Source of the DNA: Acidobacteriota bacterium
Lineage (GTDB): Bacteria; Acidobacteriota; Vicinamibacteria; Vicinamibacterales; SCN-69-37
DNA: 64,000 bases
Direction of reading: 5' to 3'
Assembly (NCBI GenBank): GCA_020853395.1
Contig: JADYYY010000011.1
Coordinates: 62,001 to 126,000 of the forward strand
The notes beneath the pieces are model-generated. The model had not been told where the DNA came from and ran no database searches. It saw only the letters and a program-made list of their open reading frames with translations. The position numbers and the translations under genes were made by a program. Positions 7,913 through 52,895 of the stretch are shown in pieces (positions within the stretch are counted from its first letter, which is position 1; every line of letters begins with the position of its first letter).

Positions 7913-8890
7913 ATGCCCAACTGGTACGAAGACAACTCACGTTCGATCGGACGCACGCCGCTCGTGCGACTGCACCGGGTCCTCGACGGTGCGCCCGCCA
8001 CCGTGCTGGCGAAGATCGAGGGGCGCAATCCCGCCTACTCCGTCAAGTGCCGGATCGGCGCCGCCATGGTCTGGGACGCGGAGCTGCGCGGGCTGCTCGG
8101 CCCCGGCAAGGAACTGATCGAGCCGACGAGCGGCAATACCGGTATCGCGCTCGCGTTCGTCGCCGCGGCCCGCCGGATTCCCATCACGCTCACGATGCCG
8201 GAGACGATGAGCGTGGAGCGGCGGAAGCTGCTCGTGGCCTACGGCGCGAAGCTCGTGCTGACGGAGGGTCCCAAGGGCATGGCCGGCGCCATCGCGAAGG
8301 CCGAGGAGATCGCCGCGTCCGATCCGAACCGCTACGTGCTGCTGCAGCAGTTCAAGAACCCCGCGAACCCTGCCGTGCACGAGTCGACGACCGGCCCGGA
8401 GATCTGGGACGACACCGGCGGGTCCGTCGACGTGTTCGTGTCGGGCATCGGGACGGGCGGGACGATCACCGGCGTGTCGCGCTTCATCAAGCACACGAAG
8501 CGGAAGCCCATCCTCTCGATCGCCGTCGAGCCGACCGCCAGCCCGGTGCTCACGCAGGCGCGCGCCGGCGAACCGCTCAAGCCGTCGCCGCACAAGATTC
8601 AGGGCATCGGCGCCGGCTTCGTGCCCGACGTGCTCGACATGTCGCTCGTGGACGAGATCGAACAGGTCACGAACGAGGAGGCAATCGAGTACGCCCGGCG
8701 GCTGACGCGTGAGGAGGGCATCCTCTCGGGCATCTCGTGCGGCGCGGCGGTGGCGGTGGCGGCGCGTGTGGCCAAACGTCCCGAGCTTCGCGACAAGACG
8801 ATCGTCGTCGTGCTGCCGGACTCCGGCGAGCGCTATCTCAGCACCGTGCTCTTCGAGGGCATGTTCGACGCGTCGGGGGTCGCGATATGA
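7913..8890 (+). CDS. cysK: cysteine synthase A (O-acetylserine sulfhydrylase)
   Basis: This 325-residue PLP enzyme makes L-cysteine from O-acetylserine and sulfide in the cytoplasm. The PLP lysine is K45 in [11 protein letters not shown], close to the enterobacterial CysK sequence. The substrate loop TSGNTG is at residues 72-77, the PLP-phosphate loop is [10 protein letters not shown], and the serine that contacts the pyridine nitrogen lies in GISCGAA. Length matches the family. It overlaps cysE by four bases, so the two steps of cysteine synthesis are translationally coupled. Confidence 0.97.
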
Positions 8891-9834
8891 CGTCGCCGGC
8901 CGGCGGCGAGCGCCGCGATCGGCCGGCCTGGGACATCGATCGCCTCGTCGCCGCACTGCGTCCGGGACGATCCGGCGTGGGCGCCGCGCCCGAGCTGCGC
9001 GGCGTCGACGAGCCGCTGCCCTCGCGGGCGGCCGTGACCCACGTCCTCGACGGGCTGCGCGCCGCGCTCTTTCCGATGCACTTCGGCGACGCGGATCTCA
9101 CGGAGGCCGGGCTGGACCGGTTCGTGAGCCGGACGCTCGACACGACGCTCGCCGCGCTGCGCGATCAGGTGTGCCGCGAACTGCGCGGCGCGGCGCGCCG
9201 CGCGGGCGCCGATGCCGCCGATCACGACGCGCGCGCCAGCGACATCGTGCGCGCGTTCGCCGGCGAGCTGCCGGTCGTGCGGGCGCTGCTCGAAAGCGAT
9301 CTCGTGGCGGCCTACCGCGGCGACCCCGCGGCCAAGCACATCGACGAGATCCTGCTGTGCTATCCGGGCGTCACGGCCGTCGTGCACTACCGTCTCGCAC
9401 ACGTGCTCGATCGGCTCGGCGCGCCGCTCATCGCCCGCATGATCTCGGACATCGCGCACTCGGAGACCGCCGTGGACATCCATCCCGGCGCGACGATCGG
9501 CGCCAGCTTCTTCATCGACCACGGCACGGGCGTGGTCATCGGCGAAACCGCGGTCGTCGGCGAGCGGGTGCGGCTGTACCAAGCCGTGACCCTCGGCGCC
9601 AAGCGCTTCGAAGTGGACGCGCACGGCGCGCTCGTCAAGGGCGTCCCGCGCCATCCCGTGGTCGAGGACGACGTGGTGATCTACGCGGGGGCGACGATCC
9701 TCGGACGCGTGACGATCGGGAAAGGCTCGACGATCGGCGGCAACGTCTGGCTCACGCGCAGCGTACCGCCCGGCAGCCAGATCACGCAGGCGCTGGCGAG
9801 AAGCGACGTCTTCGACGCGGGAGCGGGGATTTGA
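8887..9834 (+). CDS. cysE: serine O-acetyltransferase
   Basis: The 315-residue protein acetylates L-serine with acetyl-CoA, supplying the substrate of the adjacent CysK. The C-terminal half is a left-handed beta-helix of hexapeptide repeats, with [20 protein letters not shown] and [20 protein letters not shown] as the catalytic core (family histidines in D-I-H-P-G and D-H-G-T-G). The N-terminal 170 residues are helical and longer than in E. coli CysE, as in the EpsC-type branch. Its ATG overlaps the cysK stop (ATGA). The usual C-terminal I-P-A-tail for CysK binding is replaced by F-D-A-G-A-G-I, which still ends in isoleucine as CysK docking requires. Confidence 0.95.
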
Positions 9835-9925
9835 AAGGGCAAAGGGCAAAGGGCAGAGGGCAAAGGTGAAGGGGAAAGGGAAAAGGAAGGGGAAAGGGGA
9901 AAGGGAAAAGGGAAAAGGGAAAGGC
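9834..9925 (+). repeat. polypurine dispersed repeat (copy 1, intergenic)
   Basis: About 90 bases of almost pure A/G on the top strand follow the cysE stop directly, built from GGGCAAA, GGGCAGA and GGGGAAA units. A second copy with the same order of units lies on the bottom strand at 21236-21325, inside ligD. Both begin with GGGCAAAGGGCAGAGGGC and then change to GGGGAAAGGG units, so they are copies of one element and not chance runs. It separates cysE from the next gene and might act in termination or form triplex DNA; neither is shown. Confidence 0.85.
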
Positions 9926-9933
9926 CAAACAAC

Positions 9934-11199
9934 GTGACTGAGAGATCGCTCGGCTCGCTCGTCATTCTGGTGGGGATCGCGATCGGGAGCGCGGGCTGCG
10001 GGCGCAGCGAGGCGCCGCGGTCCGAGGAGGCGTCCGTGGCTGCGACACGTGCTGGATCGTTCGGCGACGACCTGGCCTTCATCCGTGCCCATGGCGCGGT
10101 CGTCGTGCTCGCGAGCGAGGATGGGCGCGCGCAGGTGGCGGTGTCGCCCGAGTACCAGGGGCGCGTGATGACGAGCACGGCGGCCGGGCCCGACGGTGCG
10201 AGCTTCGGCTACGTCCATCGCGCCGGCATCGAGGCCGGGCGGCCGCAGCCCCACATGAGCGTCGTCGGTGGCGAGGATCGCTTCTGGGTCGGCCCCGAAG
10301 GCGGCCAGTACGCGCTGTATTTCCCGCCCGGCGCCGCCTTCGATACGGAGCACTGGCAGGTGCCGGCCGCGATCGACTGGGGCGCGTGGCCGGTCGCCTC
10401 GCAAGGCCCGCGTGACGTGTCGTTCACGAAGACGATGACCCTGCGCAACTACGCGGGGACGTCATTCGACGTGCGCGTCGATCGGCTGGTGCGACTGCTG
10501 GATCGCCCGGCGCTCGTCGAGGCGCTCGGCGTCGAGCCCGGTCCAGGCACGAGCGTCGTCGCGTACGAGTCCGACAACCGGATCACGAACACCGGCAGCG
10601 CAGCGTGGCGGAAGGAGACCGGTCTCATGTCGATCTGGATTCTCGGCATGCTCCGGCCGGCGCCGCGCACCACGGTCGTGATCCCGTACGAGCCGGGTTC
10701 CGTCGAGGAGCGCGGACCCGTGGTCAACGACAAGTACTTCGGAGCGCCTCCGGCCTCACGCCTGAAGATCGGCGAACGGGCGATCCTTTTCCGCGGCGAC
10801 GGACGGGCGCGCGGCAAGATCGGCGTGCCGCGGCCACGCGCGCGCAACGTGGCGGGCAGCTACGATCCGGACGGACGGCTGCTGACCCTGATCCAGTTCT
10901 CGCTGCCCGACGCTCCGGCCGGCTACGTCAACTCGATGTGGGCGTTGCAGCAGGATCCGTACGGTGGCGACGTCATCAACAGCTACAACGACGGCCCGCT
11001 CGGGCCAGGGCAGCCGCCGCTCGGCCCGTTCTACGAGATCGAGTCCTCGTCGCCGGCGGCCGCGCTGCGGCCCGGCGCCTCGATGTCCCACCGGCACCGC
11101 ACGCTGCACCTTCAAGGCCCGCCGTCCGAGTTGGACATCATCGCTCGCAAGGTGCTCGGCGTCGGCCTCGACGACATCGCCGGCAGCCTGCCCGAGTGA
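9934..11199 (+). CDS. lipoprotein of unknown function (DUF6786-like)
   Basis: This 421-residue protein has a lipoprotein signal: hydrophobic residues 9-19 followed by S-A-G-C with the modified cysteine at position 22. It is therefore predicted to be lipid-anchored. The mature region reads as a beta-rich domain resembling galactose-mutarotase-like sugar-binding folds (for example EDRFWVGPEGGQYALYFPPG and FEVGYVNSMWALQQD-like strands), which fits the DUF6786 family as I remember it. Neighbours on both sides act on carbohydrates. No catalytic residues can be named. The gene starts nine bases after the polypurine repeat. Confidence 0.72.
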   Translation: MTERSLGSLVILVGIAIGSAGCGRSEAPRSEEASVAATRAGSFGDDLAFIRAHGAVVVLASEDGRAQVAVSPEYQGRVMTSTAAGPDGASFGYVHRAGIEAGRPQPHMSVVGGEDRFWVGPEGGQYALYFPPGAAFDTEHWQVPAAIDWGAWPVASQGPRDVSFTKTMTLRNYAGTSFDVRVDRLVRLLDRPALVEALGVEPGPGTSVVAYESDNRITNTGSAAWRKETGLMSIWILGMLRPAPRTTVVIPYEPGSVEERGPVVNDKYFGAPPASRLKIGERAILFRGDGRARGKIGVPRPRARNVAGSYDPDGRLLTLIQFSLPDAPAGYVNSMWALQQDPYGGDVINSYNDGPLGPGQPPLGPFYEIESSSPAAALRPGASMSHRHRTLHLQGPPSELDIIARKVLGVGLDDIAGSLPE

Positions 11200-19905: not shown

Positions 19906-20244
19906 ATGGCCAAGAAAGCACGTCGTAAGAGGGATTCGCTCGGGGTGACCGCCGAGAACGTCGGCGCGGCGCTCGGCCGCATTGCGGTGCGGTTCGAGCA
20001 GTGGAAGCAGCAGCGCGCGGAGCTCGCCAAGGAGATGCAGCACGTGCTGCAGTCGGCCAGCGCGATGCTCGGCGAAATCGGCGAGACGGCCGGCGAGGCG
20101 GTCGACTTCGTCAAGACGCGGACGAGACGAGGCGGCCGTCCGAAGGGATTCCGCGTGTCGGCCGCGACCCGCCGGAAGCTGCGTGCGGCGTGGAAGCGCC
20201 GGAAGCGGGCCGTGGCCGAGGCCGTGAAGGCCGTCACCGACTAG
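19906..20244 (+). CDS. small basic AT-hook-like protein of unknown function
   Basis: This 112-residue protein begins MAKKARRKRDSLG, has a central amphipathic helical region (about residues 25-70, FEQWKQQRAELAKEMQHVLQ), and ends in a strongly basic tail. That tail contains R-G-G-R-P-K-G, which matches the core of an AT-hook minor-groove-binding motif, followed by a helix-rich ATRRKLRAAWKRRKRAV. DNA binding is inferred from the composition. Its 3' end overlaps the convergent ligD stop by 11 bases. It is not recognised as a named family; a nucleoid-associated or repair-accessory role is a guess from context. Confidence 0.7.
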   Translation: MAKKARRKRDSLGVTAENVGAALGRIAVRFEQWKQQRAELAKEMQHVLQSASAMLGEIGETAGEAVDFVKTRTRRGGRPKGFRVSAATRRKLRAAWKRRKRAVAEAVKAVTD

Positions 20245-22336
20245 TCAGCGCCGCGAGGTCCACCGGTTTCGCCGTGCGGAAGGCCGTCCAGAGATCGCCG
20301 GCCGCGCGGAATCGGGCCGGCGCCGTCTCGATCGTGAAGTCGCGCGGATCGACGCCGCGCTCGACCTCGTTCCAGGTGAGCGGCGTCGAGACGCCGGCGT
20401 ACTCGCTCGCGCGGGCCGAGTAGGCGGTCGCGAGCGTCTTGCCCAGGATGTTCTGCAGGAAGTCGACGTAGACCGTGCCGTGCGGGCGGCTGCGCACGGC
20501 GCGCACGACGGTCGCGGCCTTCGGGTGTTCGTCCGCCACCATCGTCGCGATCATGCGACCCAGCAGTTGGCCCGTGTCGTAGGTGGTCGCGGCCGGCAGC
20601 GGGATGTAGATGTGCATCCCGCTCGCGCCCGACGTCTTCGGCCAGGCCGGAATACGGAAGCGATCGAGGACGTCCTTGACCCAGCGCGCGACGTCGAGCA
20701 CGCGCGCGAACGTCGCGCCGTCGCCCGGGTCGAGATCGATCGCGGCGTAGTCCATGTGCAGCGGATCGGCGACCCTGGAGAACCACGGGTCCTGGGAGAT
20801 CGCCGCGATTTGCGCCATGTAGAGGAGCGTCGTGAGCGACCCGCCGATCAACCGATCGCGAGGCCCTTCTTCGGTGATCGGATCGACGCCGGCTGGCAGC
20901 ACCGCGCGCCGAACGCCCTGCGGGACGTCTTCGGGATGGCGTTGCTGATAGAACGCCGGCCCGTCGACACCGTTCGGAAACCGCCTCATCACGAGCGGCC
21001 GATCGTCGACCGCCGGCAGCAGCATCGGCGCGACCTCCGCGTAGTAACGAAGCAGGTCCCCCTTGGTGAGGCCGGCCTTCGGCCAGAACACCTTGCGGAG
21101 GTTCGTGACGCGGAGCAGGTCGCCATTCGGCAGCGCGATCTCGCCGTCTTTGCCTGACGCCTCCAGCGCCGTCAGTTGATCGATCACCGGTCCTGTGCCG
21201 GTCCCGACCTCGCGCCGGTTCCGATGACGCGGTGGCCCGCTTCCCTTTGCCTTTTCCCCTTTCCCCTCCCTTTCCCCTTCCCCCTTTACCTTTGCCCTTT
21301 GCCCTCTGCCCTTTGCCCTTCTTCGTTCGCGTCGCACCGACGTCGCCTCTTTGTCTTCGCGCATCCCGAGATAGACCGGCTGCCGGAGCAGCCCGTCCGA
21401 CGTCCATTCCGTGAACCGGACTTCGGCGACGAGATCGGGACGCACCCAGTGCGCGCGCTCCGCCGTGCGGACGCGATCGGCGAACGGGCTCTCGCGAGTC
21501 TCGCGATCGCGGAGCAGCCGGCCGACGCGCACGAGCTCGGCCTGATCGAACCCCGTGCCCACGCTGCCCGCCCAGCGCAGGCGCGCATCGTCGTAGTAGC
21601 CGACCAGCAGCGCGCCGAAGTGCGCCCGCGACTCGCGCGGCTCGGTCCAGCCGCCGACGACGAATTCCTGCTGCTCGAGCAGCTTGAGCTTGCGCCAGGC
21701 CGGCGTGCGCTTGCCGCTCTGGTAGATCGAGTCGCCGTCCTTGACGATGAGGCCTTCCCAGCCGTCGCGGCGGGCGCGCTCGAGGAGCGCGTGGCCGTCG
21801 TCGGCCGCGAGCTCGCTCAGCCGCACCCAGCGGCGCTGCCGCGCGTCCGGCCGGACCCTCGCCTGGAGCCGGAGCCGGCGGGCCGCCAGCGGATCGGATC
21901 GCAGGTCTTCGTCTCCGTCGCGCAGCAGGTCGAACGCGATCAGCGCCGTTGGCTGAAGACGTTCGGCGCGTTCGATCTCGGCCGGCGACGTCAAGTGAAT
22001 CCGCTGCTGGATGTGCTGGAAGCCGAGCGGCGTGCCGGTCCGGTCGACGGCGACGATCTCCGCGTCGAGCAGTACCGGACCGGGAAGCCTCCGTGCCATC
22101 GCGGCCAGCGTGCGGACGATGCCGGGGAACTGGACGTGCTTCTCGCGGCCGTTGCGCGAGTAGAGCGCCACCACAGGATCGGCGCCCTTTCGCGCCGGCG
22201 GGCGCACGTCCACGAGCGCGCGAATGCCGTCGTACTTCGGCTCGTAGACGAGGCCGGGCTGCGCGAGGGGCGGCGCCGCGAGCGAGGCGAGCATCGGACG
22301 GATGGCCGCCGGTTCCGCGCGCCAGCGGGAGGGCAT
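20234..22336 (-). CDS. ligD: ATP-dependent DNA ligase D (ligase and polymerase domains)
   Basis: The 700-residue protein is the non-homologous end-joining ligase. The adenylation domain comes first, with the nucleotidyl lysine K34 in YEPKYDGIRA and motif IV EGLIVKDGDSIY near 194. An OB-fold domain follows to about residue 325 and the primase/polymerase domain spans about 400-690 (LDLDPGDGATF carries the D-x-D metal site; KTSGASGMHIYIPL). The 3'-phosphoesterase domain of larger LigD proteins is absent. Residues 338-367 are an Arg/Lys/Gly tract encoded by a polypurine repeat that also occurs at 9834. Divergent from ku. Confidence 0.95.
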   Translation of the reverse strand: MPSRWRAEPAAIRPMLASLAAPPLAQPGLVYEPKYDGIRALVDVRPPARKGADPVVALYSRNGREKHVQFPGIVRTLAAMARRLPGPVLLDAEIVAVDRTGTPLGFQHIQQRIHLTSPAEIERAERLQPTALIAFDLLRDGDEDLRSDPLAARRLRLQARVRPDARQRRWVRLSELAADDGHALLERARRDGWEGLIVKDGDSIYQSGKRTPAWRKLKLLEQQEFVVGGWTEPRESRAHFGALLVGYYDDARLRWAGSVGTGFDQAELVRVGRLLRDRETRESPFADRVRTAERAHWVRPDLVAEVRFTEWTSDGLLRQPVYLGMREDKEATSVRRERRRAKGRGQRAKVKGEGEREGKGEKAKGSGPPRHRNRREVGTGTGPVIDQLTALEASGKDGEIALPNGDLLRVTNLRKVFWPKAGLTKGDLLRYYAEVAPMLLPAVDDRPLVMRRFPNGVDGPAFYQQRHPEDVPQGVRRAVLPAGVDPITEEGPRDRLIGGSLTTLLYMAQIAAISQDPWFSRVADPLHMDYAAIDLDPGDGATFARVLDVARWVKDVLDRFRIPAWPKTSGASGMHIYIPLPAATTYDTGQLLGRMIATMVADEHPKAATVVRAVRSRPHGTVYVDFLQNILGKTLATAYSARASEYAGVSTPLTWNEVERGVDPRDFTIETAPARFRAAGDLWTAFRTAKPVDLAALTSR
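21236..21325 (-). repeat. polypurine dispersed repeat (copy 2, inside ligD)
   Basis: On the ligD coding strand this is about 90 bases of A/G with the same unit order as the copy at 9834-9925. Its length keeps the ligD frame open. It encodes only Arg, Lys, Gly, Glu, Ala, Gln and Val residues between the ligase and polymerase domains, where a flexible basic linker is tolerated. Confidence 0.85.
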
Positions 22337-38593: not shown

Positions 38594-38683
38594 TTCACCT
38601 GCAGCACCGAGCGCGAGGACTGGGCGACGCCGCGTTTCGCCGTATGGCGCGCGGACGGCGGTCACGTCTCGCCGTGGCGCGCG

Positions 38684-38784
38684 GGCAACGGCACGTCGCA
38701 TGGGAGCGGGCGGCGCCACGTCGCATGTCGGCGGGCGACGCCACGTCGCATGCGGGCGGGCGACGCCACGTCGCATGGGGGCAC
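38684..38784 (+). repeat. 25-base tandem repeat, four units
   Basis: The core CACGTCGCATG occurs at 38692, 38717, 38742 and 38767, exactly 25 bases apart, in units of the form GCCACGTCGCATGNGGGCGGGCGAC with slight variation. It ends 26 bases before tRNA-Arg. No reading frame uses it convincingly. Confidence 0.88.
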
Positions 38785-52448: not shown

Positions 52449-52895
52449 GATCCGGGGGGCTTCGCCCCCGCGGACCCCCCTACGCGCTCACTCGCGGGGG
52501 CCCCACGATCCCCGCGCCGGTCGCGCGGGCTCGCTTCGCCGCTTCTGATCCGGGGGGCTTCGCCCCCGCGGGCCCCCCGACGCGCTCACTGGCGGGGGCC
52601 CCACGATCCCCGCGCCGGTCGCGGGCTCGCTTCGCTCGCTTTTGATCCGGGGGGCTTTGCCCCCGCGGACCCCCCGACGCGCTCACTCGCGGGGGCCCCA
52701 TGATCCCCGCGCCGGTCGGGCGGGCTCGCTTCGCTCGCTTTTGATCCGGGGGGCTTCGCTGCCGCGGGCCCCCCGACGCGCTCACTGGCGGAGACCCCAT
52801 GATCCCCGCGCCGGTCGGGCGGGCTCGCTTCGCTCGCTTTTGATCCGGGGGGCTTCGCTGCCGCTGCCGCGGACGCGCTCACTGCGTCTGCGTTC
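52449..52895. repeat. 98-base hairpin-rich tandem repeat, about 4.5 units
   Basis: Units start with GATCCGGGGGGCTTCG at 52449, 52547, 52644, 52743 and 52842, so the period is 97-99 bases; the last unit is truncated. Each unit holds a GGGGGC/GCCCCC hairpin with a short TTC loop, a second G-run/C-run pair, and a GCTCGCTTCGCTCGC inverted motif. Units differ by single bases, for example CCCC replaced by CTGC in the last two. It fills the gap between the convergent dinB-type and small acidic protein genes. Open frames within it encode repetitive Pro/Ser/Ala peptides and are not genes. Confidence 0.93.

Follow-up and report, generated by a model that had tools for sequence, protein, structure and literature searches.

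The two A/G-rich tracts in the window (the whole stretch of DNA analysed, 64,000 nucleotides from an Acidobacteriota bacterium) most likely represent solo ends of a short mobile element associated with an S23 gene, and we regard this explanation as a whole as quite probable. The reading rests on the membership of the tracts in a dispersed array family, on the placement of S23 genes between such arrays, on the link between the two in Lysobacteraceae, and on occupied and empty alleles in Nostoc. A broader proposal has about an even chance of being right. It posits a widespread class of bacterial mobile elements that carry one gene, for an S23/four-helix-bundle protein, and end in inverted, fast-evolving arrays of 7-9-base repeats. 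Such elements would need no known transposase or reverse transcriptase to spread, would give rise to hairpin pairs lacking the gene as well as to solo arrays, and would be the shared origin of the heptamer repeats in cyanobacteria and Xanthomonas and of the 23S rRNA intervening sequences. So far, these heptamer repeats, the S23 proteins and the intervening sequences have been treated as unrelated problems. Were they to belong to one element, it would become possible to test what the S23 family, which is found across many phyla, does, and the element would show a selfish repeat repeatedly turning into coding sequence, in LigD linkers and in a Cas4 N-terminus.

Both tracts, which the initial annotation had picked out from the sequence, were recovered by TRF as period-7 arrays (9834-9929 and 21243-21321) and by a purine-tract scan, which set their limits at 9833-9924 on the plus strand and 21240-21324 on the minus strand (Table 1). 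They had been described as sharing one order of units. The unit types are indeed common to both, but the order is near-identical and not exact: CAAA-CAAA-CAGA-CAAA-GGTGAA in copy 1 and CAAA-CAGA-CAAA-CAAA-GGTAAA in copy 2, and each order was found at further sites in the genome. Copy 1 takes up the space between the cysE-like gene and the DUF6786 gene, with its first GGG unit 2 nt past the cysE stop codon, and forms a purine-rich stretch just 5' of the DUF6786 start codon. Copy 2 encodes residues 338-366 of LigD (RRRAKGRGQRAKVKGEGEREGKGEKAKGS), in the linker that joins the C-terminal domain of the ligase (237-329) to the Prim-Pol domain (424-683). With 12 K/R and 4 D/E residues, this segment is the in-frame basic insertion between ligase and polymerase that had been proposed.

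Table 1. Locations of the features discussed. Plain coordinates are positions in the window; those with a locus prefix refer to fetched loci.
Feature	Location	Strand	Evidence or remark
Solo GGGCAAA-family array, copy 1	9834..9925	+ (purine strand)	TRF, tract limits, boundary and unit order, cysE stop
Solo GGGCAAA-family array, copy 2, in frame inside ligD	21240..21324	-	TRF, tract limits, unit order, LigD domain limits
cysE-like serine O-acetyltransferase	8737..9834	+	NCBIfam NF041874 above cut-off
DUF6786 gene, directly 3' of array copy 1	9934..11199	+	PF20583, E=2.5e-147
LigD (ligase and primase-polymerase) carrying the in-frame array	20234..22336	-	Pfam PF01068, PF04679, PF21686; TIGR02776
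ATCGGGRC array	L273:13650-13865		
ATCGGGRC array	L275:11334-12393		
ATCGGGRC array	L287:13213-13390		
Inner motif near AGGAACGAGCTGACGCTGGCC	L048:3062		
Inner motif near AGGAACGAGCTGACGCTGGCC	L057:3132		
Inner motif near AGGAACGAGCTGACGCTGGCC	L109:1125		
Inner motif near AGGAACGAGCTGACGCTGGCC	L109 ~1266	-	
S23 cassette at CRISPR-Cas genes	L322:1600-2520		
S23 cassette at CRISPR-Cas genes	L324:1740-2470		
S23 cassette at CRISPR-Cas genes	L358:2430-2900		

Overall, the tracts belong to a large family. The array core AAAGGGCARAGGGCAR had 65 exact matches in the 4.28-Mb genome of the window (G000), and 120 with at most one mismatch. The same core read backwards had none, which places the family far above chance. 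Among the relatives, the core was matched 43 times in G006, 54 times in G030, and twice each in G009 and G020; the other 35 relatives had no match, and the spread of the family is patchy. A sharp outer boundary, A followed by GGGCAAAGGGC, is common to 40 ends in G000, and 12 ends in G006, which belongs to another genus, mostly carry the boundary CTGTTA followed by GGGC. The copies are single arrays or convergent inverted pairs, the arrays of a pair lying about 10 bp to 1.3 kb apart, and the full element is such a pair of short-period arrays, with the conserved ends outermost and the inner ends degenerate. By a strict pattern, 8 of the 30 fetched G000 loci were convergent pairs and 22 (about two thirds) were solo; the S23 locus L062 is counted as solo here because its right end is short. 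Pairs are predicted to form long hairpins, and a short pair folded far better than its own shuffles (z=-11). Array ends lay just past stop codons in 13 of 40 cases, against 7% expected (p=3e-6).

The initial annotation had suggested a dispersed, spreading element able to become coding sequence, to be refuted by a lack of further copies, and had named slippage as a possible source. The spreading element has gained from the many copies, the variable LigD linkers and the in-frame LigD copy. Slippage fares worse as the main source: the unit order is kept over the 40 ends of G000 and the 12 of G006, which implies that whole arrays were copied and that slippage merely lengthens some of them. Run-on units do occur (nine CAAA units in L057 and a run of CAGA units in L054), as expected if low-complexity tracts had formed site by site through separate events of replication slippage. 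Nevertheless, the unit order and outer boundary common to 52 ends in two genera, the inverted pairing and the S23 association make that origin very improbable, and the common order and boundary refute slippage as the sole origin. What the earlier reading missed is the inverted pairing, the S23 gene and the generality of the arrangement.

The S23 gene came into view inside the arrays. The GGGCAAA copy at C16:90768 in G000 encloses an S23/four-helix-bundle gene, and a GGGCAAA pair in G006 (C34:2944) encloses a four-helix-bundle gene of the same subfamily. PF05635 matched exactly three genes in G000, each within a different dispersed array family: GGGCAAA (period 7), GGTACGAC (period 9, 189 pattern matches) and GGTCCCG (period 7, 112 matches). 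These three proteins and the one from G006 pass the curated cut-offs of PF05635 and TIGR02436. No GGGCAAA-flanked S23 gene was seen in the flanks inspected in G030. A fourth dispersed family, ATCGGGRC, came from a 464-kb sample; it has period 8 and 26 matches, is more degenerate, looks older and forms inverted pairs, and no S23 gene was found at its sampled sites or by PF05635. We also noticed a motif near AGGAACGAGCTGACGCTGGCC just inside the arrays of two families, GGGCAAA and GGTACGAC; this placement would fit a common core between array and cargo.

We then quantified how general the layout is. In the window's genome and in relatives, 70 PF05635 genes were scored; the median inverted-repeat score of their flanks was 27.8, and a score of at least 20 was reached by 70% of these genes against 0.7% of random window positions. 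The flanks of LigD genes, a different family from the same genomes, had a median of 10.5. The scan of named genomes relied on a six-row alignment, a 24-row alignment being too diverse, and yielded 80 loci distributed over about 20 phyla; of these, 75 were scorable. The inverted-array flanks of these 75 S23 genes had a median of 20 against 10 for control positions at the same loci (p=3e-26), the most common array period was 7, and the G-rich strand pointed inward in 131 of 144 arms. Similar S23 proteins also have similar units (Mantel r=0.24, p<=5e-4; r=0.11 below 60% identity), part of this similarity at high identity being plain common descent. An S23 gene between inverted arrays of 7-9-base repeats is a general layout.

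In Lysobacteraceae, the S23 gene often lies between GGGAATC/GGGATTC arrays. At least five GGGANTC array matches were present in 39 of 54 genomes with an S23 gene and in 10 of 65 without one (odds ratio 14, p=2e-10); this count covers 119 genomes, its statistics ignore kinship, and units other than GGGANTC exist. The link between S23 and arrays is not strict, since the ATCGGGRC family has no S23 gene and 10 of the 65 genomes without the gene have arrays. Rehm 2015 counted 70-75 convergent pairs of the GGGAATC repeat in each genome, saw no general association with mobile elements, and located 90% of the Xcc repeats at positions with matching gene neighbours in Xac (PMC4692102), which suggests that present-day movement may be slow. 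The GGGAATC and GGGGA(C/T)T heptamer (G4) repeats of Xanthomonas and Nostoc and the cyanobacterial STRR resemble our arrays in period, intergenic bias and convergent inverted pairs (PMC4692102), and our arrays do consist of G-rich 7-nt units in convergent, intergenic pairs. Neither the link between S23 and heptamer arrays nor occupied and empty alleles were found in the open-licence literature on these repeats. The S23 cassette layout may be the source of the Xanthomonas and cyanobacterial heptamer repeats.

Evidence for movement came from sister array families, for which occupied and empty alleles of one site were found. Nine Nostoc plasmid stretches have one operon (W-X-Y-Z) in common. At the X-Y junction, three carry a cassette of AGTCAGG array, S23 gene and array, five are empty, and one has an unrelated short gene. 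The comparison of pC052_D with pC052_B revealed a clean 417-bp insertion (TTCTA^GATTATG) within a stop codon and without target duplication; pNsp_a has a 3-nt CTA microhomology at the insertion, such sites being few and the other alleles less exact. At the Y-Z junction, one of the nine plasmids has a different, polypurine-flanked S23 cassette, and the W-X junction varies in its gene-less AGTCAGG pairs, which some plasmids have, some have in nested form and others lack. Occupied and empty sites were also contrasted at nrdB-nrdA (Nostoc edaphicum vs Calothrix NIES-4105), at cas6-cas4 (Anabaena sp. 90 vs Nostoc UHCC 0302, with another insert in Dolichospermum UHCC 0315A) and at cas10-cmr3 (Picosynechococcus PCC 7003 vs 7002). 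Both gene-bearing and gene-less forms of the sister families thus insert as units between conserved genes, and by analogy the GGGCAAA family would have the same mobility. For the two window copies, we found no empty allele at the DNA level, and LigD was compared with relatives at the level of protein and linker. As a side observation, three cyanobacterial plasmids carry an S23 cassette flanked by CRISPR-Cas genes, twice at type I-D cas6/cas4 and once at type III-B cas10/cmr3.

The occupied alleles do not distinguish S23 from another mover. An unrelated transposase or reverse transcriptase might spread the arrays in trans, in a REPIN/RAYT-like or retro-like manner, with the S23 gene as a passenger. 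The hairpin pairs, the lack of a clear target duplication and the presence of many repeats for a single gene recall REPIN/RAYT (PMC3116915), and Y1 transposases are frequent in the relatives. However, G000, which is 99.9% complete, has no match to the Y1_Tnp profile, and RVT_1 had no match in G000, G006 or G009. Neither a retro route via those enzymes nor RAYT therefore explains the copies, and both routes were rejected for G000. Moreover, it is an S23 gene that lies within the arrays in about 20 phyla, and the units vary together with the protein, which leaves an unrelated mover quite unlikely.

Several known systems resemble the S23 cassettes in part. REP/REPIN sequences with RAYT share a repeat-flanked protein gene, many gene-less hairpin-forming inverted doublets, and singlets as relics (PMC3116915). 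Unlike these, the present gene encodes an S23/four-helix bundle and not a Y1 HUH transposase, and the repeats are tandem arrays instead of palindromic REP. The accessory protein Avd of DGRs reportedly has four-helix-bundle homology with PF05635 (PMC10053308), but a DGR needs a reverse transcriptase, and the genome holds none of these systems because RVT_1 has no match. MITEs likewise occur as short gene-less inverted-repeat copies beside a gene-bearing form; unlike MITEs, the best-defined site (pC052_D vs pC052_B) has no target duplication, and there is no recognised transposase parent. The 23S rRNA intervening sequences of Coxiella and Leptospira are elements of about 430 bp with stem-forming terminal inverted repeats and a single S23/four-helix-bundle ORF, which in Coxiella is preceded by GACAGAT heptamers (PMC4990558). 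The present cassettes also have an S23 ORF between inverted repeats. By contrast, the annotated cassettes that were inspected, like both copies in the window, are located between or within protein genes and not in 23S rRNA; their ends are long arrays of short period, and pairs lacking the gene and solo ends are scattered over the genome.

On the other hand, the arrays could be host sequences with a cellular role, such as RNA hairpin terminators, G-quadruplex or nucleoid sites, and S23 their binding partner instead of a mobility protein. The frequent position just past stop codons and the strong predicted hairpins agree with such a role, as do the purifying selection on S23 genes (median dN/dS 0.18; 65 of 65 usable pairs below 0.5) and the stable positions in Xanthomonas (PMC4692102). 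Yet the differences among sister plasmids in whether they hold cassettes and gene-less pairs, the in-frame LigD copies and the patchy spread among relatives fit a selfish element better. We consider a purely cellular role unlikely, although it can be combined with the mobile-element view.

The LigD linkers provide a further comparison. A conserved linker of the same composition in the relatives would have spoken against a spreading repeat; instead, their linkers differ in length and sequence. Period-7 to -9 arrays (period score at least 0.75) were present in 7 of 21 measured linkers, built from different units: GGGCAAA in G000, GGGACTC in G015, GGTGCCAAT in G027, GGCACACC in G022 and GGTTCGGAA in G006, together with those of G020 and G009. 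The other 14 had no array at this score. The LigD of G030 (different family) has an in-frame GGGCAAA array at another position (AQGKGQRAQGKGQRARGA; L237). An earlier suggestion was that error-prone end joining dependent on LigD copies or captures the tracts, for which the copy within ligD and the one in the G030 ligD could be cited. Since most copies lie elsewhere, the ends are inverted with conserved boundaries, and the relatives' LigD linkers hold arrays of other families, we regard this origin as extremely improbable. No special tie to ligD as a site was seen either, and a disordered linker that tolerates insertion is the simple reading. Repeated, independent entry into tolerant protein segments explains the LigD arrays without a role for end joining, and likewise explains the array that encodes the Cas4 N-terminus of Anabaena sp. 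90.

Returning to the S23-associated element, we propose how it may work. Gene-less pairs and solo arrays would be non-autonomous relics. The S23 protein may bind the array hairpins and be needed for their spread or upkeep, acting in trans with a putative host strand-transfer or replication activity. Insertion would proceed without clear target duplication and favour sites just past stop codons. At cysE, the array would have landed right behind the stop codon; in ligD, its insertion into the disordered linker would have kept the reading frame open and lengthened the protein by a basic segment. We know of no catalytic role for the S23 fold, and the S23 proteins showed none of the known strand-transfer domains. 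Rfam gave no match in seven cassette or array loci, and phage records gave none to the S23 query. The S23 profile does find XCC0516 (structure 2gsc, E=7e-42), and an S23-fold protein has been reported to be a pentamer (PMC4990558).

The window holds other tandem repeats as well: a 25-base unit in 4.1 copies at 38681-38782, and a GC-rich 99-base unit with short palindromes in 4.4 copies at 52449-52883.
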